Source: a virus. Taken from it: a DNA stretch of 64,000 nucleotides. Under the pieces are notes generated by a model. That model was not told the DNA's origin, did no database searches, and saw only the letters and a list, made by a program, of their open reading frames with translations. Both the position numbers and the translations under genes were made by a program. This document shows positions 2 to 63,725 of this stretch, piece by piece. Numbering within the stretch: position 1 is the first letter of the stretch; each line of letters starts with the position of its first letter. The stretch lies in IMG/VR virus record IMGVR_UViG_3300024289_000019, positions 1-64,000 of that record; one strand, given 5' to 3'.

Positions 2-28
2 ACTGGAGTTTGGGAGTCTCTTGAATGA
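2..28 (+). CDS. 3' end of an upstream gene (partial)
   Basis: This frame is open from the window edge to a TGA at 26-28, which overlaps the ATG at 25 as ATGA. That is the stop/start overlap used throughout this genome. Only about eight residues are visible, so no function can be given. Confidence 0.35.
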   Translation, partial: TGVWESLE

Positions 29-576
29 TATATTTTTTATATGATGTTGAAGATAGGAGCCCTTATATTAATGAGGTTGGAGAATATTCTAGTTGTTTAA
101 TTGGAGCTATTGATGAGGCTAACCTGCTATATATAAGATTACCAAAAGTTCTTATTGTTCCTAAAAACGTAGCCATGGCATGGAAATTTGCTGGAAAGTA
201 TAAAGGCTATATAAATGTTAGAGAAAAAACAAGAGTATATGATCAGATTGATCATGAATATTTGAATCCATATAAAGATAAATATCAATATTCTTTGACC
301 GAAGAAGACAAAGAAAATGCTTGTTTATTTCAAAAAGCATTTATGTGTTTCACATTAAACAAATATTATAAAAATAAAATTCGTATTTCTAACTCAACAC
401 CCGCATTTTTACGAGATGAAAATTGGTCTTCAGAACACGTACTTTTAGAAAAGAAAAAAATAGTAGAGTCTGAGATAAATGCTTGCCAAAATTGGATAGA
501 AACTGGTATACTATTAGATAAGAAATTTGGAGTTCAATATGACCCAAATATTGCATCACAAACTATCAATCTTTAA
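25..576 (+). CDS. hypothetical protein, 183 aa
   Basis: I do not recognise this protein. It is soluble-looking, mixed charge, with no signal peptide or membrane segment. Four scattered cysteines (near residues 24, 100, 108 and 154) form no obvious metal motif. The ATG follows an in-frame stop directly and overlaps the preceding stop. It lies 5 bases upstream of the U32/methyltransferase fusion, so it is probably co-transcribed with it and may share its accessory role; that is inference from position only. Confidence 0.75.
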   Translation: MIYFLYDVEDRSPYINEVGEYSSCLIGAIDEANLLYIRLPKVLIVPKNVAMAWKFAGKYKGYINVREKTRVYDQIDHEYLNPYKDKYQYSLTEEDKENACLFQKAFMCFTLNKYYKNKIRISNSTPAFLRDENWSSEHVLLEKKKIVESEINACQNWIETGILLDKKFGVQYDPNIASQTINL

Positions 577-581
577 GGAAA

Positions 582-2225
582 ATGTTTAGCGTACCTTTAA
601 ATCCAAAATTAAATGAAAATCAACTTAATGATTTTATAAATTTTTTAAAAGATTATAAACCATATATTTATGATTTTTATTTTACATGTAGGATCCCGCC
701 ATTTAATCAAGATGCTATGGGGGATGTTTTTTCTGCTGGGCCAGAAGACCATCAATACCTTATTGATTTAGCATTATATATTCAATCTGAGTTAGGAATT
801 ACTGCTTCTGCAGTTTTTAACAATATCGAGGTCAGGCCAAGTCAAGAAAACCTAGATTTGTTTATTGAAAATTTTAAACCACTATATGAATCTGGTATTA
901 GATCTGCAACAATACCACATACTCATTGGATGGCTACAGGACAAATTAAAAAACAGTTCCCAGAACTTTTTGTAAAAAATACAATATTGAGAAATGTTTC
1001 AGAACCAAGAGACATAGAAAAGCTTGCTAAGGCTGGATTTGATTATATAAATTTAGATCGTGACTTAATGAGGGATCACGAACGTTTAAAAAGGTTTAAT
1101 AAGGCAAAGCAACAGTTTGGCATAAAACTGTCTCTATTGGCCAATGAAGGCTGTTATGGCGGTTGTATAATGATGGACGAGCATTATCAATTTAATAACA
1201 CTAGAACAGATGGACCACAATATTTTAATGACCCAATAAGTAGGGTATCTTGCCCAAAATGGGATCACGAAGATTTTGCACATTCTCTTAAAACAGCCAA
1301 TTTTCCTCCATGGAGAAAGGATTGGCAAGAGTTTTTAGATGATCTTGGAATTGATGTAATTAAAATGCATGGTAGAGAATCTCATACAAGATTAAAAGAA
1401 ACTATGGATATAATTAGAAGGTATGCCAACAATGAAGAAATTTTATTTGATAATTTTAATGATTTTATTGAAGAAACTAATTTGGTTGATAAACCAATTG
1501 CCATCTGGCGCAATAAGATCAAAAATTGTAAATTTGATTGCTGGGATTGTGGGTATTGCGACAAAATAGTTGCAGCTAAATATGGCACTCATATCAATGA
1601 GAAAGTTGCTTTGGTTGCTAAAGAAATTGTTGATTCAGTAAATAATTTAATTGAAATAGATATCCCAGGATTAACTAGTACTCGTGTTCAATCTTTAATT
1701 AATGCAATTGCAAATAAAAGTAAAAAATATTTAGAGGTTGGATCTTATCAGGGTGCAACCGCAGCGGCTGCTTTAAAAGGTAATAGCATAGAAGCGTATT
1801 TTGTAGATAATTGGTCAAATGTTCCACAATCTTTACGAACAGATTGGGACACTCCTAAAAGTAATTCATTGGAAGAATTTAAAGATAATATAAGGCCATA
1901 TATTGGAAATAATAAAATTAAAATATGCAATTCTGATATGTTTAAGGTAAATTTAACAGACATTAAAGATATTGATTTTTTCTTTTATGATGGCCCACAC
2001 GACTTGCAGAATACGCAAAATATAGTAAAATATTACTCAGAGGTTTTTGCAAAAAACACCATTATGATATTTGATGACGCAAATTGGACTCAAGTAGTTC
2101 AAGGCTCTCATAAAGGAATTATTGAGTCTGGTTTAAAAATATTATATAGCAAAAAAATATTAAATAGTTCAGAATCAGATAAAGACTGGTGGAACGGTTT
2201 ATACATATTAGTTACGGAGAAATAA
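582..2225 (+). CDS. U32-like Fe-S TIM-barrel protein fused to a class I methyltransferase
   Basis: 547 residues in two parts. Residues 1-345 look like a peptidase-U32-type TIM barrel. Cysteines 191 and 195 (NEGCYGGC), 224 (SCPKW) and a cluster at 316, 320, 323 and 326 could hold an iron-sulfur cluster, as in the UbiU/UbiV/TrhP/RlhA branch, which acts in hydroxylation of RNA or quinones. KMHGRES near 261 resembles the K-x-GR segment of U32 proteins. Residues 375-547 look like a Methyltransf_24 domain: LEVGSYQG at 384-391 for SAM, an acidic residue at 409, YDGPHD at 469-474 and FDDA at 497-500. The SD before 582 is weak (AAGGAAA). Its stop overlaps the membrane protein start as TAATG. Substrate unknown; family assignment from motifs only. 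Confidence 0.65.
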   Translation: MFSVPLNPKLNENQLNDFINFLKDYKPYIYDFYFTCRIPPFNQDAMGDVFSAGPEDHQYLIDLALYIQSELGITASAVFNNIEVRPSQENLDLFIENFKPLYESGIRSATIPHTHWMATGQIKKQFPELFVKNTILRNVSEPRDIEKLAKAGFDYINLDRDLMRDHERLKRFNKAKQQFGIKLSLLANEGCYGGCIMMDEHYQFNNTRTDGPQYFNDPISRVSCPKWDHEDFAHSLKTANFPPWRKDWQEFLDDLGIDVIKMHGRESHTRLKETMDIIRRYANNEEILFDNFNDFIEETNLVDKPIAIWRNKIKNCKFDCWDCGYCDKIVAAKYGTHINEKVALVAKEIVDSVNNLIEIDIPGLTSTRVQSLINAIANKSKKYLEVGSYQGATAAAALKGNSIEAYFVDNWSNVPQSLRTDWDTPKSNSLEEFKDNIRPYIGNNKIKICNSDMFKVNLTDIKDIDFFFYDGPHDLQNTQNIVKYYSEVFAKNTIMIFDDANWTQVVQGSHKGIIESGLKILYSKKILNSSESDKDWWNGLYILVTEK

Positions 2226-3136
2226 TGCCTAGTTTAAATATTTTGTTTGAAGAGTGGTACTACATATTAATGCTTGGAACTGTAATGGTTCTTTCTTATT
2301 ATGCAAGAAAATTTGATGTCTTTCAACCACTTTATTCTTGGATTGCAAAAAAAATAAAATCAAAAAGAGCAGTAATTGCTATTACATCAGCCGTTTCTGG
2401 AGTGTTGCCAATTAATGGCAGAGTTGTTATTTCAGCTGGAATCTTAAATACAATGGCTCCACAAGATGAGCGTAGAAAAAAATATGGCGTCATAGACTAC
2501 TTGGCAACACATCACTTTTATTTTTGGTCTCCATTAGAAAAGACTGTATTGCTTCCGATGGCGGCATTAAATATTTCTTATGCTTCTTTTATAGGATCGG
2601 TATGGCCGCTGCTTGCAACTTTAGTAGTTTGTATTCTTTATTATATTTTTGGGGTTTTAAAAGAGTCTGATGTAGATATTGTTATTAGGAGTAAGAGAGA
2701 AAAACAATTATTAAACACAAAAAATATAATCAAGGATAATATATTTACATTATTTATAGTCACAGCCATCCTTGCTTTGGGCAACTTTGTGTCATACCAC
2801 AAAGACTATTTTTCAAAAATTGTAGATTCGGCTCACGATTCAGAGATGCTAGTATTAGTCTTACTTGGATCCTTTATCCTATCTTTTATCCTAGGAAGTA
2901 GTGGAAAATTTGCTGGAGTTCTAGCCGTATCCCTACCAATTTTTGGAGCCACCTACCTACCCATACTGTTTGCAGCAAATTGGGCTGGCTACATATTGTC
3001 TCCAATGCATAAATGCATGATAATTGGAAAGAGGATGTTTGGGTCTTCCTTTAAAGAATACTATAGGGTCCTATCAGCAGTAGTCCTATTTGTCTTTTTG
3101 GTATCGATAGTTCAGACTTATACCACAGGGCTTTAA
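2225..3136 (+). CDS. polytopic membrane protein, transporter-like
   Basis: 303 residues from the ATG that overlaps the upstream TAA, with GGAGA just before it; an upstream in-frame start at 2189 lies inside the previous gene and is less likely. I count about seven or eight hydrophobic segments, including residues 10-27, 47-68, 116-140, 170-188 and 205-260. The conserved-looking GVLPINGR (about 57-64) and GSSGKFAG (about 219-226) recall DUF401/citrate-transporter-type families, but it is shorter than those. It would sit in the host membrane. Translational coupling to the U32/methyltransferase gene suggests a shared function. Substrate cannot be inferred. Confidence 0.65.
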   Translation: MPSLNILFEEWYYILMLGTVMVLSYYARKFDVFQPLYSWIAKKIKSKRAVIAITSAVSGVLPINGRVVISAGILNTMAPQDERRKKYGVIDYLATHHFYFWSPLEKTVLLPMAALNISYASFIGSVWPLLATLVVCILYYIFGVLKESDVDIVIRSKREKQLLNTKNIIKDNIFTLFIVTAILALGNFVSYHKDYFSKIVDSAHDSEMLVLVLLGSFILSFILGSSGKFAGVLAVSLPIFGATYLPILFAANWAGYILSPMHKCMIIGKRMFGSSFKEYYRVLSAVVLFVFLVSIVQTYTTGL

Positions 3137-3918: not shown

Positions 3919-4887
3919 ATGGCTGTAGCAAATTCAACTACACAAATTATAATGCCAGGACTAGATGCGTCTATTCAGTCAAATCTAAATACAGCATTAA
4001 ATACAAACACAACGTTGCAGAATGTTTTAGCATCAGTTGGAAATATTCCACTGAAAGTTGTTAAGCCTGTTACAGTCAAATTAACTTCAACACAGTATTG
4101 GACTCGTCCAGCTAATACACTGTCTTCAGTAGAGGTTACAATTGTTGGCGGCGGCGGAGGCGGCGGGGGATCTCATGGTTCTCACCATGGTGGCGGCGGT
4201 GGTGGTGGAGGACAGGTTATTCGTCGTCACGTAGATATTGCATCTGTTGCAGTAGGACAATCTGTTCTTGTTACAATTGGAACTGGTGGTTCAAGAGTTT
4301 GTGGAAGCACAAATACAAATGGCGGTAGCGGTGGTAATACTACATTTGGTTCATTCTTAACTGCATTTGGCGGCGGCGGAGGCGGCGCTTATGGACAGCA
4401 TGCACCACAATCTCCTGGAGGTTCAACTGGTGGCGGCGGTGGAAGAAACGCACACTCTGCAGGAGGCGGTGGCGGTGGCGCAGGTGGCGCAGGCGGAGGA
4501 GCTTGGGGACAAAATCAAGAACATAGCTGGAGAATGTATGCTGGACACGGTTCACATACACCAACAACAGATGAAGGATCTTCTTCTGGAGGACATGGAA
4601 TGGCTGGACAAAATTCAAGTTCACAGTCTACAACAGGTGGAACTGGCGGATTAGGTTTGTATGGCCTTGGCGGTGGCGGTGGCGGTTCAGGTCGTCACGC
4701 AATGGGCAACGGATCAAACGGTGGTGGCGCAGGTGGCGCAGGAAATGGAAGTCCGTATGGAACTGCTGGACAGCCTGGACAAAATGGTTCTGGCGGTGGC
4801 GGTGGCGGTGCAGATAATGGAGACTGCTCAGGACTTGGTGGAGACGGAGCATGTATTATTACTTATTGGTTAAAGGAGAATGCATAA
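3919..4887 (+). CDS. Gly-rich tail-tip adhesin, copy 1
   Basis: 322 residues. Residues 1-75 are a non-repetitive base with WTRPAN, followed by a long Gly-rich part holding about ten runs of Gly separated by short variable loops rich in His, Ser, Asn and Gln. This layout matches Gly-rich receptor-binding adhesins such as T-even-type gp38, where Gly runs form polyglycine II helices and the loops bind the receptor. That match is by composition and layout. The gene has AGGAGA upstream, and its stop overlaps the next start as TAATG. Its paralogue lies at 5700-6680, with the base conserved and the loops different. Confidence 0.75.
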   Translation: MAVANSTTQIIMPGLDASIQSNLNTALNTNTTLQNVLASVGNIPLKVVKPVTVKLTSTQYWTRPANTLSSVEVTIVGGGGGGGGSHGSHHGGGGGGGGQVIRRHVDIASVAVGQSVLVTIGTGGSRVCGSTNTNGGSGGNTTFGSFLTAFGGGGGGAYGQHAPQSPGGSTGGGGGRNAHSAGGGGGGAGGAGGGAWGQNQEHSWRMYAGHGSHTPTTDEGSSSGGHGMAGQNSSSQSTTGGTGGLGLYGLGGGGGGSGRHAMGNGSNGGGAGGAGNGSPYGTAGQPGQNGSGGGGGGADNGDCSGLGGDGACIITYWLKENA

Positions 4888-5699: not shown

Positions 5700-6680
5700 A
5701 TGGCTGTAAATTCCACCACAAAGTTACAAGTACTACCAGGACTAGATAGCACAATGCAATCAAATATGCAGATTGCTTTAAACTCAAATTCAACTTTAGC
5801 ATCTGTAATTTCTGCTACTGGTGGAGTTCAAACAAAGCTTTTAAAGCCAGTAACGGTTAAATTTAATTCAACTGGTAACTGGACACGTCCAGCAAACACA
5901 ATGTCTTCAGTAGAAGTAATTTTGGTCGGTGGCGGCGGAGGCGGCGGAGGTTGCCATTCATCTGGTCACGCTGGCGGTGGCGGTGGTGGTGGACAAGTTA
6001 TTAGAAGATTCGTAGATATTTCTTCGGTAGCAGTTGGTTCAAATATTCTTGTTACAATTGGTAACGGTGGTTCAAGAGTTTCTGGTAACAATAATACAAA
6101 TGGTGGAGACGGAGGACAATCAACCTTTGGTTCATTCTTGACTGCAGGCGGAGGCGGCGGAGGCGGCGCTTATGGACAGACTGGAAGACAAGGTAGCGGT
6201 GGATCTTCTGGCGGTGGCGGTGGCCAAGCTTCACACTCTGCTGGTGGCGGTGGCGGTGGCGCAGGTGGCGGAGGATTGCATGGTCGTTGCATGATGATGC
6301 ACCACTCTTGGTACACTTATGGTGGGCAGGGCTCACATAACGTTTCTGGACTTAATGGAGGAGAAGGAGCTTCTATGGGAGGTTCTGGAGAGTATAAGGC
6401 CTCGTCATCAGATCAGAATTGTTGCGGTGGAAATGGCGGACCTGGACTATATGGATTTGGCGGCGGCGGCGGAGGCGGCGGAGATTGGGGTATGGGAGCA
6501 GGTTCAAATGGCGGTGGAAATGGTGGCTCAAGAACTTCGTATAGCCCATATGGAACTGCTGGAGCATCTGGTATAGATGGAACTGGCGGCGGCGGCGGAG
6601 GTTGCCAAGAAGGAAACAGTTCTGGCTTAGGTGGCGCAGGGACCTGTTTAATTACTTACTACGTAAAAGAGAGCGCTTAA
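5700..6680 (+). CDS. Gly-rich tail-tip adhesin, copy 2
   Basis: 326 residues, a clear paralogue of 3919-4887. The base (about residues 1-75) matches through NSTT, PGLD, QSN, ALN, LKPVTVKFNS and NWTRPAN. The Gly-run framework is kept, including IRRFVDISSVAVG, VTIGNGGSRVSG and a LITYYVKES ending. The intervening loops differ strongly and here contain extra Cys and Met. This is what is expected when two receptor specificities are kept on one particle or swapped by recombination. GGAGA lies upstream. The same caution on function applies as for copy 1. Confidence 0.75.
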   Translation: MAVNSTTKLQVLPGLDSTMQSNMQIALNSNSTLASVISATGGVQTKLLKPVTVKFNSTGNWTRPANTMSSVEVILVGGGGGGGGCHSSGHAGGGGGGGQVIRRFVDISSVAVGSNILVTIGNGGSRVSGNNNTNGGDGGQSTFGSFLTAGGGGGGGAYGQTGRQGSGGSSGGGGGQASHSAGGGGGGAGGGGLHGRCMMMHHSWYTYGGQGSHNVSGLNGGEGASMGGSGEYKASSSDQNCCGGNGGPGLYGFGGGGGGGGDWGMGAGSNGGGNGGSRTSYSPYGTAGASGIDGTGGGGGGCQEGNSSGLGGAGTCLITYYVKESA

Positions 6681-8198: not shown

Positions 8199-10490
8199 AT
8201 GGCATACAAACAGTATGGAAATGTAATAAATACTTTAAACATAAAAGCAAAAAATATATTTAATTGGAACACAAATTATATAAGTTCCTATGGTTTTCGA
8301 AATTTAAATTCTAAAAATGCCCACACCGCAATTTCAAGATCTACAATTAAAGTTTCAAGTGGAACTGGACAATTACTTGGCTATGTCCCTTCTTTAGTTG
8401 GTTTAAATTATGACACAGCATCATTATTGTTAAGAAATGCTGGATTTACTCCTGATCCAAATTATATTTATTCTAACAGCATTGGTTTTCAACAATATCT
8501 TTCTCAGGGAGGATATGTTTCAGCTCAAGCACCTGCACCTTCAGCATCTTCTGGAACACTACTGGCATTTGGTTCAAGCGTGAGGCTTGATGTTATTCTC
8601 TATACATCTACGCCAATTGATACAAGCACGGTTCCAAATGCCCCACTATGGTCTAATGCTACATCTACAGATTCTGCTGTTACACTAACCTTTTTGACTC
8701 CAAGTAATGGTGGGTCTCCAATTTTAAGATATGAGTATAGTATAACAAATGGTGCAACTTGGATAAATATTAATTTACCAGTAAACAATACATTTACTGT
8801 TTCTGGTTTAACAAATAATGTTAACTATACATTTTATATAAGAGCAGTAAATGCAAAAGGAAATTCTGCATCTTCATCTGGAGTTACAAAAGCGCCCGTT
8901 GCATCAGGAGGAGGCGGAACAGCAGTTGTTCCAGGAACTCCATCTTTTACAGTATCATTTATTACCAATACATCTTTTAGAATAGATCTTACTCCACCAG
9001 CAAGCGATGGCGGATCTCAAATTATAAGATATCAACATTCTCTTAATAATGGTGTTACTTGGACAAATGATTTTACAAATACTGGACCTATTACAGTTTC
9101 AAATTTAACTCCAGGTACATCTTATCAAGTAGCATTAAGAGCAGTAAATGCAATTGGAAATGGTATTGCAACTGCTAGTCAAAATATTTCTACTACTCAA
9201 ATTGTCCCAGAATTAATTGGTATTTCTGTAAATGCTGCAAAAGCAATTATAACTGCATCTGGCTATGTTTATGGAGACGGAACAATTTCAGCCTCAAATA
9301 ACCAGTTTTATTTAGACTATCCTGGAGGATATGTTACAGCACAATCTCCTACTGCTGGAGCAAATTTGGCTGGCGGAGGAACAGTTAGATTAGACTTTAC
9401 ACAATATCTTTCAGCACCATCATATGGAACGGTACCAAATGTTATTGGACTTACCTTATCTGAAGCGGTTACAAGACTACAACAGGCTGGATATTCAAAT
9501 ATAACTCAAATAACAACATCTGATCCAAACAAAACATATCAACAAATTTATGCACAAAATCCAGTTTCTGGAACGGCAGCTCTTGTCAATACAGAAATTA
9601 CAATTAGCTATTCAGATTATACAGGTACTATATCAACACCAACAAATACAGTTAAGCCTTCCATTACTTATGACAATTTGTATGTAGGTTCTGTCTTTAA
9701 AGCAAAAGTAGGTTCTTGGACCGACAGTCCTACATCTTATGCATACCAATGGTATGATACAAATGGAAACAATTTTTTTAATGGAACATCGGTAAATTAC
9801 ACTGCAAATTCTTCTGCAATTTCTAGATCTATAAGACTAAAAGTTTCTGCTACAAATGCTGCTGGTACAAGCTCGTTTGTTTCTGCAGACAACGCATATG
9901 GTCCCATCAAAGATCTTCTACAACCTTCTACAGTTACTACTGCTTCAGTTAATGGAAGACAGTCTACGCAATTAAATATGCAATGGTTTGGAGGAGACTC
10001 ACCATTTTATTTTATTGGTATATATAAACCAGGAACATCTGCATATGTAACTACAAAAATTGTGTCAACAGAGTCTACATCTTTAACTGGATTAACTGCT
10101 GGAACTAACTATTATATACAAATATTTGGCAACAACAATAATGAATATTCTGCTAATTCTAAAACAAGCGAAGTAATATCTACAGTATTTGCAGCAGCTC
10201 CATCAAGTATGGTAATTAATTCTACAACAAAAAGTGGAAACAATATAAACTTTACAGCAACAAAAGGATCAAATACTTCGGCAATTTCATTAATATTACA
10301 AACAACAGGTGGAGGTTCTGTGTCAAACGCCATTGAACAAAAATTTGGATATGACCAATCTACTAATAATGTTTCTGGCTCTTATGATATAACAAATATT
10401 GCTTCTGGTACATATAATTTGGTTGGATATGGTTGGAACCCAGATTACGGTAACTCCCTACTTGCCTCAATTGTTCAGGTTACGATATAA
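8199..10490 (+). CDS. tail fibre with PASTA and fibronectin type III domains
   Basis: 763 residues. Order: short N-terminus; PASTA-like repeat about 60-132 (YVPSLVGLNYDTA); fibronectin III about 144-231 and 244-334; PASTA about 335-404 (VPELIGISVNAA); PASTA about 410-476 (VPNVIGLTLSEAV); Ig-like about 480-570; fibronectin III about 575-664; a terminal beta domain. PASTA repeats normally bind peptidoglycan in penicillin-binding proteins and serine/threonine kinases of Gram-positive bacteria, so here they may hold the tail to the cell wall. AAGGTGA precedes the ATG. Confidence 0.8.
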   Translation: MAYKQYGNVINTLNIKAKNIFNWNTNYISSYGFRNLNSKNAHTAISRSTIKVSSGTGQLLGYVPSLVGLNYDTASLLLRNAGFTPDPNYIYSNSIGFQQYLSQGGYVSAQAPAPSASSGTLLAFGSSVRLDVILYTSTPIDTSTVPNAPLWSNATSTDSAVTLTFLTPSNGGSPILRYEYSITNGATWININLPVNNTFTVSGLTNNVNYTFYIRAVNAKGNSASSSGVTKAPVASGGGGTAVVPGTPSFTVSFITNTSFRIDLTPPASDGGSQIIRYQHSLNNGVTWTNDFTNTGPITVSNLTPGTSYQVALRAVNAIGNGIATASQNISTTQIVPELIGISVNAAKAIITASGYVYGDGTISASNNQFYLDYPGGYVTAQSPTAGANLAGGGTVRLDFTQYLSAPSYGTVPNVIGLTLSEAVTRLQQAGYSNITQITTSDPNKTYQQIYAQNPVSGTAALVNTEITISYSDYTGTISTPTNTVKPSITYDNLYVGSVFKAKVGSWTDSPTSYAYQWYDTNGNNFFNGTSVNYTANSSAISRSIRLKVSATNAAGTSSFVSADNAYGPIKDLLQPSTVTTASVNGRQSTQLNMQWFGGDSPFYFIGIYKPGTSAYVTTKIVSTESTSLTGLTAGTNYYIQIFGNNNNEYSANSKTSEVISTVFAAAPSSMVINSTTKSGNNINFTATKGSNTSAISLILQTTGGGSVSNAIEQKFGYDQSTNNVSGSYDITNIASGTYNLVGYGWNPDYGNSLLASIVQVTI

Positions 10491-10499
10491 TGGAGAGCA

Positions 10500-12236
10500 A
10501 TGTCATATCATCTTAATGTAATTAAAGACAACCCCATGGCTTTCTGGCCTTTGGACGAGTCTATATTTTCTAATACAATTGACATTTCTGGTTCTGGAAA
10601 TAATGGATCTTATGTAGGAACATTTTCTGGAAACATAATGCCTTTAGTATATGGAGGAAGTAACGCAACTAAAATAACTAATACTAGTTATGTGACTTGT
10701 CCAGTAACAAAAAATTTTTATAAAGAAGTAGGCAAAGGTGGTTTTGCTACTTCAGACTATTCAGACAATAGCTTTTCTTTAGAAATCTGGCTAAAGCAAA
10801 ATATATCATCTGGTTCAATGACACCTATATTTGCAGACTCTACCAACAACATAGGGCTATTTTATTTTAATGGAAACATTATTTTTAAAGTAAACTCTCA
10901 ATCTTTAATTTATAAGCTATCATTTGCAGAAAAAGCAATGCATATTGTTGCCTGCTACGGAACTAATTCTATGTCTATATATGTAGATGGTTCATTAGCC
11001 ACATCCCGTTTGCTTGAGTCTTTTAAATTTACCAATAATACTTTGTCAATTGCTTGCGGTCCAACCAATGATGCTCAGGACTATTTTTTAATAGATGCCC
11101 CAGCCATTTATAGATATAAGCTTTCTGCAGAACAAATAGCAGAACATTTTAACTCTGGCCTAGATCATACACAGCCCATACATATTGTTGCTCCAGACAA
11201 TGGCATTTTATTAGGTTTACATGGCCAAAATATTGCACCAGTTTTTATATATCAATACAACAAAGACGTGCAATGGCAATCTTTTATAGATGAAAATACA
11301 TACTATGATGAAGTAAATAAATATATTTCATTTAAAAAATCTACAGGTCCAAAAACATTTATAATTAATGACGTATTTAACGTTCCAACTTCAACCCCAA
11401 TTATTAGTTCAAAAATAGAGTGGAAGGGGGATAAGAATATAACTGTGGAATCATCCATAGACAATACAACATGGGTACAATGTATAAACGGATCTTCCCT
11501 TCCACAATTTAATAAAGAAAACTATACTGGAGATAGCTTGGTATATATTAGAATCACAATGACAACCGATGATTCTGAAATTGATTTTCCAAGACTCTCA
11601 TTATTTAGAGTTTTGTTTTATTCTAAAAAAGAATTATATGCACATAATTATGGATACTACGCTACATCAGAAAAAGAATATGATGCTGCCAATTTTAGTT
11701 ATCCAGTTTTAATTAGACATCCAAATGTTGGTTTAAAAACTTGTGGCACAGGAGGATTTAAGGTAGATATAGATTTGGACATAAGCACTGTAGAGTTTAT
11801 GTTTACCCCGACCAGCCTTGCTGACAATATGGTTTTTTATTGTCCAGATCCAGAGTCTAAATTTGGATGGGCTGGAAACACAGCAATAAAATCCAATATA
11901 TCCAAGGTTTACATAAATGAAGAGGATGTCACCTCTGTTACTAATATTAAATCTAAATTTGTATTAAATGAGCCACATCACGTAGTGCTTGTTTTAAGTT
12001 CACCAGCACAAAATGTATTACAGTTTAATTACTTATCTAATACAAATTATGGCCCCGTATGTAATTATCAAAATATAGGTTTATACCAATACCAGTTTGT
12101 TCCAGGAGATGTTGCCTTCCATTACGATACATATTGTGGCAAACCCTCTATTTCTGTTTCAGATTCGTCACTGGGCCTGACAGAATCTGGAGTAACAACC
12201 TATAATCAAGACTATTTAATAGTATCCAGTGCATAA
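10500..12236 (+). CDS. LamG-type fibre protein, 578 aa
   Basis: Residues 1-225 form a LamG/pentraxin-like domain: AFWPLDES, SGSGNNGSYVG, FSLEIWLK, then MSIYVDGSLA and DAPAIYRYKLSAEQI at its end. Residues about 230-420 are beta-rich and unassigned. Residues about 420-578 look like a second LamG-like unit (STVEFMFTP, HHVVLVLS). It closes the fibre locus and is followed by an inverted repeat and a promoter. Surface glycan binding is the likely role. Confidence 0.7.
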   Translation: MSYHLNVIKDNPMAFWPLDESIFSNTIDISGSGNNGSYVGTFSGNIMPLVYGGSNATKITNTSYVTCPVTKNFYKEVGKGGFATSDYSDNSFSLEIWLKQNISSGSMTPIFADSTNNIGLFYFNGNIIFKVNSQSLIYKLSFAEKAMHIVACYGTNSMSIYVDGSLATSRLLESFKFTNNTLSIACGPTNDAQDYFLIDAPAIYRYKLSAEQIAEHFNSGLDHTQPIHIVAPDNGILLGLHGQNIAPVFIYQYNKDVQWQSFIDENTYYDEVNKYISFKKSTGPKTFIINDVFNVPTSTPIISSKIEWKGDKNITVESSIDNTTWVQCINGSSLPQFNKENYTGDSLVYIRITMTTDDSEIDFPRLSLFRVLFYSKKELYAHNYGYYATSEKEYDAANFSYPVLIRHPNVGLKTCGTGGFKVDIDLDISTVEFMFTPTSLADNMVFYCPDPESKFGWAGNTAIKSNISKVYINEEDVTSVTNIKSKFVLNEPHHVVLVLSSPAQNVLQFNYLSNTNYGPVCNYQNIGLYQYQFVPGDVAFHYDTYCGKPSISVSDSSLGLTESGVTTYNQDYLIVSSA

Positions 12237-57730: not shown

Positions 57731-57804
57731 GTGGCAGTAGCTTAGTTGGTTAGAGCCCCGAACTCATAATTCGGTAGTCGTAGGTTCGAGTCCTACCTGC
57801 CGCA
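57731..57804 (+). tRNA. tRNA-Met (anticodon CAU)
   Basis: Acceptor GTGGCAG with CTGCCGC (one G-U), D-arm GCTTAG...GAGC, anticodon stem CCGAA/TTCGG with loop CTCATAA (CAT at 57765-57767), T-arm GTAGG-TTCGAGT-CCTAC, discriminator A. CCA is not encoded. From sequence it could be elongator Met or a modified Ile(CAU) tRNA. Confidence 0.92.
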
Positions 57805-57817
57805 CAAGGAGAAAGAA

Positions 57818-58493: not shown

Positions 58494-58566
58494 GCCCTTG
58501 TAGCTCAGTGGATAGAGCGAGACTCTTCTAAGGTCTGCGTCGGAGGTTCGATTCCTTTCAGGGGCG
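58494..58566 (+). tRNA. tRNA-Arg (anticodon UCU)
   Basis: Acceptor GCCCTTG with CAGGGGC (one G-U), D-arm GCTC...GAGC, anticodon stem AGACT/GGTCT with loop CTTCTAA (TCT at 58527-58529), T-arm GGAGG-TTCGATT-CCTTT with G-U pairs. Reads AGA, which the phage genes use very often for Arg. Confidence 0.9.
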
Positions 58567-58571
58567 CTTTT

Positions 58572-59181: not shown

Positions 59182-59916
59182 ATGGAGATTATTGATTTAG
59201 AGCAACCAAATGTATTAATCATTAAAAATTTCTTTTCTAAAGAAGAAGTTGAAAAAGTTTTAATTCCAATGAAAGAAACTTCTGAAGAAATTTGGAATCT
59301 TCAGGGTGAAGCCAAAAAAGAAGATTCTACTAGAATTAAAAGAATGTCAGAAAGACTTATTGAATCTGATAACATGAATTGGTATGGAATGACTATGGAT
59401 ATTACAAGTCGTGTTGATGCCTATAGAATGTATTCACATCTCCCACATGCTTTTTTAATAGAAAAAGAGCAACAAATAAAAAAAATAATAACAAATAAAT
59501 TTAAACAAAATGTTGTTTTACAGCTCTCTGGTCTTCATAGGTGGAGGCCAGGAAGAGAGCAAAAGCCTCATATAGATTATTATGATTCTAGTGAACAGCA
59601 TGATTTTGATATGTTAGAAAAATATAATCTGACAAAAGATCGTTTAGAAGAATTTGAGCATTCTTTTAATGACAAACATTATTCTTCATTAGTTTATTTT
59701 AATGAAGATTATATGGGTGGAGAACTATATATGCCTCAATGGGATTGGGAAATAAAACCTGAGACAGGTATGTTAATTGCTTTTGAGGGAAATCAAAATC
59801 ATTTACACGGAGTAAAGATGATGGAAGAAGGAATAAGATATACTTGGTCTATTTTTTGGACAAGATTTGAGTGGGCTATGAAAAACAAAATTAAAGATAG
59901 TAAAGTGAGCATGTAA
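59182..59916 (+). CDS. 2-oxoglutarate/Fe(II) oxygenase
   Basis: 244 residues. HxD at His130-Asp132 (KPHIDYYDS), distal His at 209 (NHLHGV), Arg219 and WSIFWTRF at the end make the prolyl-4-hydroxylase-like facial triad and 2-oxoglutarate site. Phages carry many such enzymes, acting on DNA, proteins or surface molecules. Substrate is unknown here. Ribosome site GGAGAG stands close to the ATG. Confidence 0.82.
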   Translation: MEIIDLEQPNVLIIKNFFSKEEVEKVLIPMKETSEEIWNLQGEAKKEDSTRIKRMSERLIESDNMNWYGMTMDITSRVDAYRMYSHLPHAFLIEKEQQIKKIITNKFKQNVVLQLSGLHRWRPGREQKPHIDYYDSSEQHDFDMLEKYNLTKDRLEEFEHSFNDKHYSSLVYFNEDYMGGELYMPQWDWEIKPETGMLIAFEGNQNHLHGVKMMEEGIRYTWSIFWTRFEWAMKNKIKDSKVSM

Positions 59917-63636: not shown

Positions 63637-63709
63637 TGATCCATAGCTCAGTCGGCAGAGCGGGAAGCTGTTAACTTCTAGGTCCCTGGTTCGAGTCCAG
63701 GTGGATCAG
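63637..63709 (+). tRNA. tRNA-Asn (anticodon GUU)
   Basis: Acceptor TGATCCA with TGGATCA, perfect. D-arm GCTC...GAGC, anticodon stem GGAAG/CTTCT with loop CTGTTAA (GTT at 63670-63672), T-arm CCTGG-TTCGAGT-CCAGG, discriminator G. CCA not encoded. Confidence 0.92.
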
Positions 63710-63725
63710 CGAGAGAAAGAAAAAA

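Follow-up and report, generated by a model that had tools for sequence, protein, structure and literature searches.

The gene at positions 582 to 2225 (+ strand, ATG start) of a 64,000-nucleotide stretch of viral DNA (the window; positions 1 to 64,000 of IMG/VR record IMGVR_UViG_3300024289_000019, a virus record of 112,301 bases) encodes a protein of 547 residues in which a U32-type barrel is fused to an O-methyltransferase. The main new result of our analysis is the obligate genomic context of this fusion gene, which is accompanied by the same three partners, GC352, GC353 and the tail-region gene phrog_1417, in every locus with sufficient flanking sequence. We tentatively propose, at a little less than an even chance, that the protein is a two-step enzyme that first hydroxylates and then O-methylates one of the module proteins, with phrog_1417 as the leading candidate.

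An obligate four-gene module

The linkage can be followed in 166 enzyme loci (80 + 6 + 80), which comprise six phages and, from IMG/VR, the best 80 of 316 stretches that encode relatives of the window protein and the best 80 of 419 that encode relatives of its P-SSM4 homologue; 101 of these loci reach 9 kb, and 46 remain once near-identical enzymes are removed. The only gene families found in all 46 dereplicated loci are the enzyme, GC353, GC352 and a tail-protein component, and the next commonest neighbors are a DUF401-like membrane protein (28/46) and a family with a 2-oxoglutarate (2OG) oxygenase member (L054; 22/46). The tail-region component is phrog_1417, of which iterative profile searches recover 71 copies in 46/46 loci, with PHROG confirming six of six copies tested. 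Where at least 5 kb of upstream sequence is available, all three partners are present in 66/66 IMG/VR loci (out of 160, the other 94 being uncounted for want of flank) and in 6/6 phages. In the reverse direction, starting from phrog_1417, the fused enzyme, GC352 and GC353 are found in 57/57 loci, namely those among 105 new loci that extend at least 4.5 kb beyond phrog_1417; it has to be held against these figures that the forward and reverse contig sets overlap and that many loci share descent. Stand-alone viral barrels, nine of nine, have no methyltransferase and none of the three partners in the flank examined, and the partners are likewise absent from ten of ten Chloroflexota barrel loci within the flank examined.

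Counts in sequenced phages agree with this linkage. The fused gene occurs in 123 of 50,697 INPHARED records, all of them cyanophages, and the enzyme, GC353, GC352 and the main domain of phrog_1417 are each found in 123 records, which divide identically by organism (77/38/8), a correspondence of counts and tallies rather than of individual accessions; the full phrog_1417 protein with its N-terminal part is found in 147 records. The module genes can be tightly packed, as in L001, where they adjoin with gaps of 15, -4 and 5 bases including stop codons, and annotated tail-fiber genes precede the module in P-SSM4 and Syn33, two of the cultured cyanophages that carry it, as S-RIM2 does. The gene order is 352-353-354 in cyanophages versus 353-352-354 in the window phage. 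In the latter, the GC352 homologue, identified via intermediate open reading frames and by iterative hmmsearch, lies at 25..576 (+) directly ahead of the fusion gene, and phrog_1417 and GC353 are found at the far end of the record (110467-111393 and 111415-112137), so that the break of the linear record falls within the module. One further contig (L229) carries the module twice, with a second, divergent copy at 9125-11685.

The fusion itself is beyond doubt. Residues 46-547 match phrog_1458 at E 2.5e-164, and the gene is a member of the T4-GC 354 / phrog_1458 family, with full-length cyanophage homologues that do not differ in kind (42-45% identity among the matches listed). The reading frame is complete and conserved. 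An earlier note on this DNA had described both domains as joined in frame, and this holds for 152/152 complete IMG/VR copies and 6/6 cyanophage copies, which excludes a frameshift or an assembly accident. Nearest relatives of the capsid and terminase of the window phage are those of Streptomyces phages (57% and 62%), so that the window phage is not a cyanomyovirus, and two or more unrelated lineages of phages thus carry the fusion. Fused homologues in cellular genomes were restricted to two short contigs (3.0 and 10.2 kb) of metagenome-assembled genomes (MAGs), with none on a long chromosome contig in the genome scan, and probably represent phage sequence that was binned in. The note had also stated that no phage system of this form has been described. 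The open-licence literature agrees with this as far as full-text searches, titles and openings of abstracts go, but the gene itself is far from rare: it is a common unknown gene of aquatic phages, annotated only as hypothetical protein in six cyanophage records (e.g. PSSM4_035 of P-SSM4). The enzyme and the three module proteins match none of the PADLOC defense families.

The exceptionless linkage across unrelated phages, together with the changed gene order, is best explained by an enzyme that acts on a module protein. The conserved neighborhood points more to a tail-region protein as substrate than to a tRNA, rRNA or small molecule, the examples that the earlier note had given. Among the module proteins, phrog_1417 (PSSM4_032 in P-SSM4), which is annotated as “sericin-like”, is the most constrained; its repeats prompted the thought of a propeller or kelch protein, which we do not claim. 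An alignment of 21 divergent copies has 13 invariant columns, compared to zero in 30 sequences of GC352 and only eight in 33 of GC353. In the numbering of L041:3403-4434, Gly37, Tyr38 and Tyr70 are conserved in 69/69 sequences that have a letter at these positions (two are gapped), and Gly275, Gly283, Gln290, Gly334 and Ser337 in 71/71.

A barrel with remote U32 ancestry

The barrel comprises residues 1-335 (582..1586, +) and is the better conserved half of the protein, with a mean column identity of 71% as compared to 49% for the methyltransferase. An AF2 model of the barrel alone, built with 46 viral sequences, reached a predicted template-modeling score (pTM) of 0.85 and a mean predicted local distance difference test score (pLDDT) of 84. 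The note's expectation of a U32 fold in the first half is borne out at the structural level, since the U32 protein Mk0906 (5d88) ranks first in VIA-align with the barrel alone (Z 16.1, root-mean-square deviation 3.3, 225/247 aligned) and reaches Z 16.0 with the full-length model; the second match of the barrel is MTHFR (Z 14.0).

An intermediate family in Chloroflexota links the phage barrel to canonical U32 proteins. The barrel profile (A3) finds proteins in seven of 301 genomes, the seed included, from the phylum of G001, a Dehalococcoidia MAG, and in one of 292 genomes, the seed only, from the phylum of G002. The Chloroflexota protein L107 is matched by this profile at 2.2e-11, and it matches PF01136 at 1.2e-15 and 5d88 at 1.2e-12. 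In hhalign comparisons, the phage barrel aligns to the L107 group at 98%, and the L107 group aligns to the canonical UbiU/UbiV/TrhP/RlhA relatives at 98% as well. Landmarks common to the phage barrel and U32 proteins are a cysteine pair after the same strand and a K-x-x-G-R signature (K261-x-x-G264-R265; 1362..1376, +) that aligns with the KIEGR of the UbiU/TrhP/RlhA relatives; K261, G264 and R265 are invariant (36/36), and the position of the glutamate is occupied by His263 in the phage family. The barrel thus has a remote U32 ancestry, which follows from the U32 fold and the intermediate family, without a direct Pfam match.

Cysteines are found at positions 36, 191, 195, 224, 316, 320, 323, 326 and 449 of the fusion protein. 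The seven that had been singled out from the sequence are exactly placed and are invariant in 36/36 aligned phage homologues, whereas C36 and C449 vary. They form a first group (C191 and C195 in N-E-x-C-x3-C; 1152..1166, +), the single C224 (1251..1253, +) and a second group (C316-x3-C320-x2-C323-x2-C326; 1527..1559, +), and are accompanied by the invariant residues E189 and H201. The pattern is present in 159/159 viral barrel copies of full length (truncated copies were dropped by a length criterion), and all seven cysteines are also invariant in a 46-row alignment that includes six stand-alone viral barrels. The Chloroflexota cousins have the same layout, including the second group, except for L110, which lacks one cysteine. 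In the barrel-only model, Cys224 lies within a stretch of pLDDT below 50 (segments 212-223 and 225-229). One or two iron-sulfur (Fe-S) clusters in the barrel are possible.

A cation-dependent-type O-methyltransferase

Residues 350-547 (1629..2222, +) form a class I O-methyltransferase domain. The methyltransferase half (METHYLTRANSFERASE) exceeds the cut-off of Pfam Methyltransf_24 (PF13578), with residues 384-499 matching at E 3.2e-8 and 34.8 bits (cut-off 26.3), as the earlier note had anticipated. At E<=0.01, the methyltransferase profile has a single sequence match in the PDB, B. subtilis TrmR/YrrM (2.4e-5), and by VIA-align the domain is tied between TomG (Z 16.9), COMT (16.7), MycF (16.4), SafC (16.2) and TrmR (15.7). 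G387, G391 and D409 are invariant (36/36), and so are D470, D498 and D499 (1989..2078, +), a candidate metal triad, of which D470 and D498 align with aspartates of TrmR and D499 with an asparagine. These residues would correspond to the Asp, Asp, Asp/Asn metal triad of cation-dependent O-methyltransferases. An O-methyltransferase of this type, which acts on aromatic or sugar hydroxyls, is supported. The domain shares the fold (Z 15-17) and the D470/D498/D499 triad with COMT, SafC, MycF, TomG and TrmR, but it differs in that position 473 is not constant, and it is not assigned to any single member.

Proposed reaction and comparison with known systems

What function can be proposed for such a fusion? 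From the cluster to the modified site, we infer the following sequence of events. The barrel, as a distant seven-cysteine branch of U32 proteins, would probably hold one or two Fe-S clusters and hydroxylate an aromatic C-H position without O2, and the fused methyltransferase of the cation-dependent type would then cap the new hydroxyl. The substrate would be a protein of the obligate module (phrog_1417, GC353, GC352 and the enzyme), with phrog_1417 as the likeliest one. By chemistry, the simplest target would be a tyrosine, converted to a 3,4-dihydroxyphenylalanine (DOPA)-like residue and further to a methoxy-tyrosine; this target is a guess from the chemistry and from the two invariant tyrosines of phrog_1417.

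There is precedent for both steps. Passages of PMC6747719 describe U32 members with clusters as O2-independent hydroxylases (UbiU/UbiV), and according to passages of PMC6599085, TrhP is a U32 protein required for a prephenate-dependent hydroxylation, and TrhP and TrmR together hydroxylate an aromatic ring and then O-methylate it, on tRNA. The B. subtilis yrrMNO system (TrmR, TrhP1, TrhP2; mo5U34 synthesis) resembles the phage enzyme in combining U32-type proteins with a COMT-like O-methyltransferase in series, as far as described in these passages, but it consists of separate proteins with a tRNA substrate, whereas the phage has one fused protein encoded in a tail-region module. In the literature consulted, substrates of U32 enzymes are RNA bases or quinone precursors. 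With the Peptidase_U32 superfamily (PF01136; UbiU, UbiV, TrhP, RlhA, Mk0906), the phage fusion has in common the fold, K-x-x-G-R, the first cysteine pair and a remote homology, and it differs by the cysteine layout, the absent Pfam match and the fused methyltransferase.

Several observations speak against the proposed protein modification or weaken its basis. The barrel has no direct U32 match in Pfam, NCBIfam or PDB sequences, PF01136 matches neither the window protein nor anything else in its record, and the profile search against peptidase U32 suggested by the earlier note thus gave no direct match; without a curated PF01136 match, we class the barrel as a distant relative and not as a member of this family. 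A direct hhalign comparison of the phage barrel with canonical U32 proteins gives only 47% (E 2e-4), and Foldseek, sorted by E-value, places class II aldolases on top and 5d88 24th, which disagrees with the VIA-align ranking. The cysteine spacing, which the note had called U32-like, is CX3C-X28-C plus CX3CX2CX2C, as opposed to the U32 motif CX6CX15CX3/4C that is given, with UbiU and UbiV variants, in passages of PMC6747719. The note's overall picture is thus partly supported: the U32-type fold and the O-methyltransferase stand, along with a remote U32 ancestry and the KxxGR signature, and the U32-like spacing and the direct U32 match do not. His473, at the usual position of the catalytic base, is present in 30/36 homologues and in only 79/157 of a larger, cyanophage-rich set, and methyl transfer may therefore differ among homologues. 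On the substrate side, the phrog_1417 family profile has no PDB match, Pfam gives no match for GC351 of P-SSM4, and it is the position downstream of annotated tail-fiber genes that suggests a tail-region, adhesin-like protein.

Which alternatives exist? Unlikely, though the likeliest of the alternatives, is the idea that the enzyme makes or modifies a small molecule, such as an aromatic or quinone-like cofactor, that is then bound by or attached to the module proteins. UbiU/UbiV act on a quinone precursor (passages of PMC6747719), the Chloroflexota cousins adjoin metabolic genes, and three of six loci of the closest Chloroflexota group have a gene of 343-347 codons directly upstream of the barrel, the one tested (L240) being a Methyltransf_2 protein; the obligate pairing with phrog_1417 and two further proteins without known enzyme domains, however, suggests that the proteins themselves are involved, and the 46 dereplicated module loci contain no constant ligase or transferase. 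Less probable is that the barrel is a cluster-bearing binding scaffold that lost or never had hydroxylase activity, with the methyltransferase acting alone. The distance to every characterized U32 protein and the unusual cysteine layout would fit, but a barrel that is so tightly conserved, more so than the methyltransferase and with seven cysteines, E189, H201 and KxxGR invariant, makes a mere scaffold improbable. Slightly more improbable still is an action on GC352 or GC353, or a requirement for the enzyme in folding of the module, with phrog_1417 as a mere neighbor: both are as constant as phrog_1417, yet they have far fewer invariant columns, as given above. Finally, a phage analogue of TrhP plus TrmR, whose barrel would hydroxylate tRNA U34 and whose methyltransferase would make mo5U34, has only a slight chance. 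Both chemistries do occur in one B. subtilis operon (passages of PMC6599085), TrmR is the sole PDB sequence match of the methyltransferase profile at E<=0.01 and the window has three tRNA genes (tRNA-Met 57731-57805, tRNA-Arg 58494-58567, tRNA-Asn 63637-63710), but every testable locus is a tail-region module and not a cluster of tRNA genes, the Peptidase_U32_C domain of TrhP has no Pfam match in the window protein (a C-terminal motif that YrrN likewise lacks, according to the same passages), the cysteine motif differs, and in the structural ranking TrmR is level with many O-methyltransferases that act on small molecules.

Neighboring genes and stand-alone barrels

Directly behind the fusion gene, a DUF401/CitMHS-like membrane protein (2225..3136, +; Pfam DUF401, E 1.9e-10) begins within the stop codon of the fusion; a relative is also found in metaG-MbCM1. 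A possible carboxylate carrier beside a U32-type enzyme is curious, TrhP being prephenate-dependent. The window phage also has a 2OG-Fe(II) oxygenase gene at 59182-59916 (PF13640, 1.3e-7), and the family with the 2OG-oxygenase member comes after the fusion in its 22 loci. According to passages of PMC3909814, Fe(II)-dependent oxygenases are found in host-recognition islands.

Downstream of the fusion, the window encodes two tail-type proteins rich in glycine (Gly_rich_2; 3919-4887 and 5700-6680), and from these genes and from the stand-alone barrels L154 and L155 came the idea that glycine-rich tail proteins are the constant partner. By a strict count they are near only 22/80, 4/6, 3/8 and 33/80 loci, and by a second count 16/47, and they were thus dropped in favor of phrog_1417.

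The seven-cysteine barrels that stand alone, in Chloroflexota as well as in some viral contigs (L102-L108, L149-L157), have the same barrel and cysteine layout, but unlike the phage fusion they come without a methyltransferase domain and without module partners. In L154 (3751-12054) and L155 (3782-11855), they adjoin glycine-rich proteins and about eight small genes; in L154, a tryptophan-halogenase gene (7.1e-105) lies beside the barrel, and all three of the small genes tested have matches to 2OG-Fe(II) oxygenase models, in two cases above the cut-off. These loci look like a larger toolkit for tail-protein modification. Carbamoyltransferase and weak sulfotransferase matches (L152 4188-5993, L149 2714-3310) are found beside stand-alone viral barrels as well, and near the Chloroflexota cousins L238-L243, genes with a twin-arginine-like start resemble reductive dehalogenases by eye.

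Implications

It is possible, though rather doubtful at present, that the cassette, shared by two or more unrelated phage lineages, is a self-contained maturation unit whose fused, oxygen-independent hydroxylase and O-methyltransferase gives a receptor-binding-like protein of the tail a methoxylated aromatic residue, which would constitute a new kind of post-translational virion modification and a protein-targeting branch of U32 enzymes. A fused hydroxylase-methyltransferase with an exceptionless tie to one tail-region protein would provide, for the literature searched, the earliest indication that U32 chemistry extends to proteins, and it would account for four hypothetical-protein families that are present in 123 cyanophage records and in hundreds of environmental contigs.
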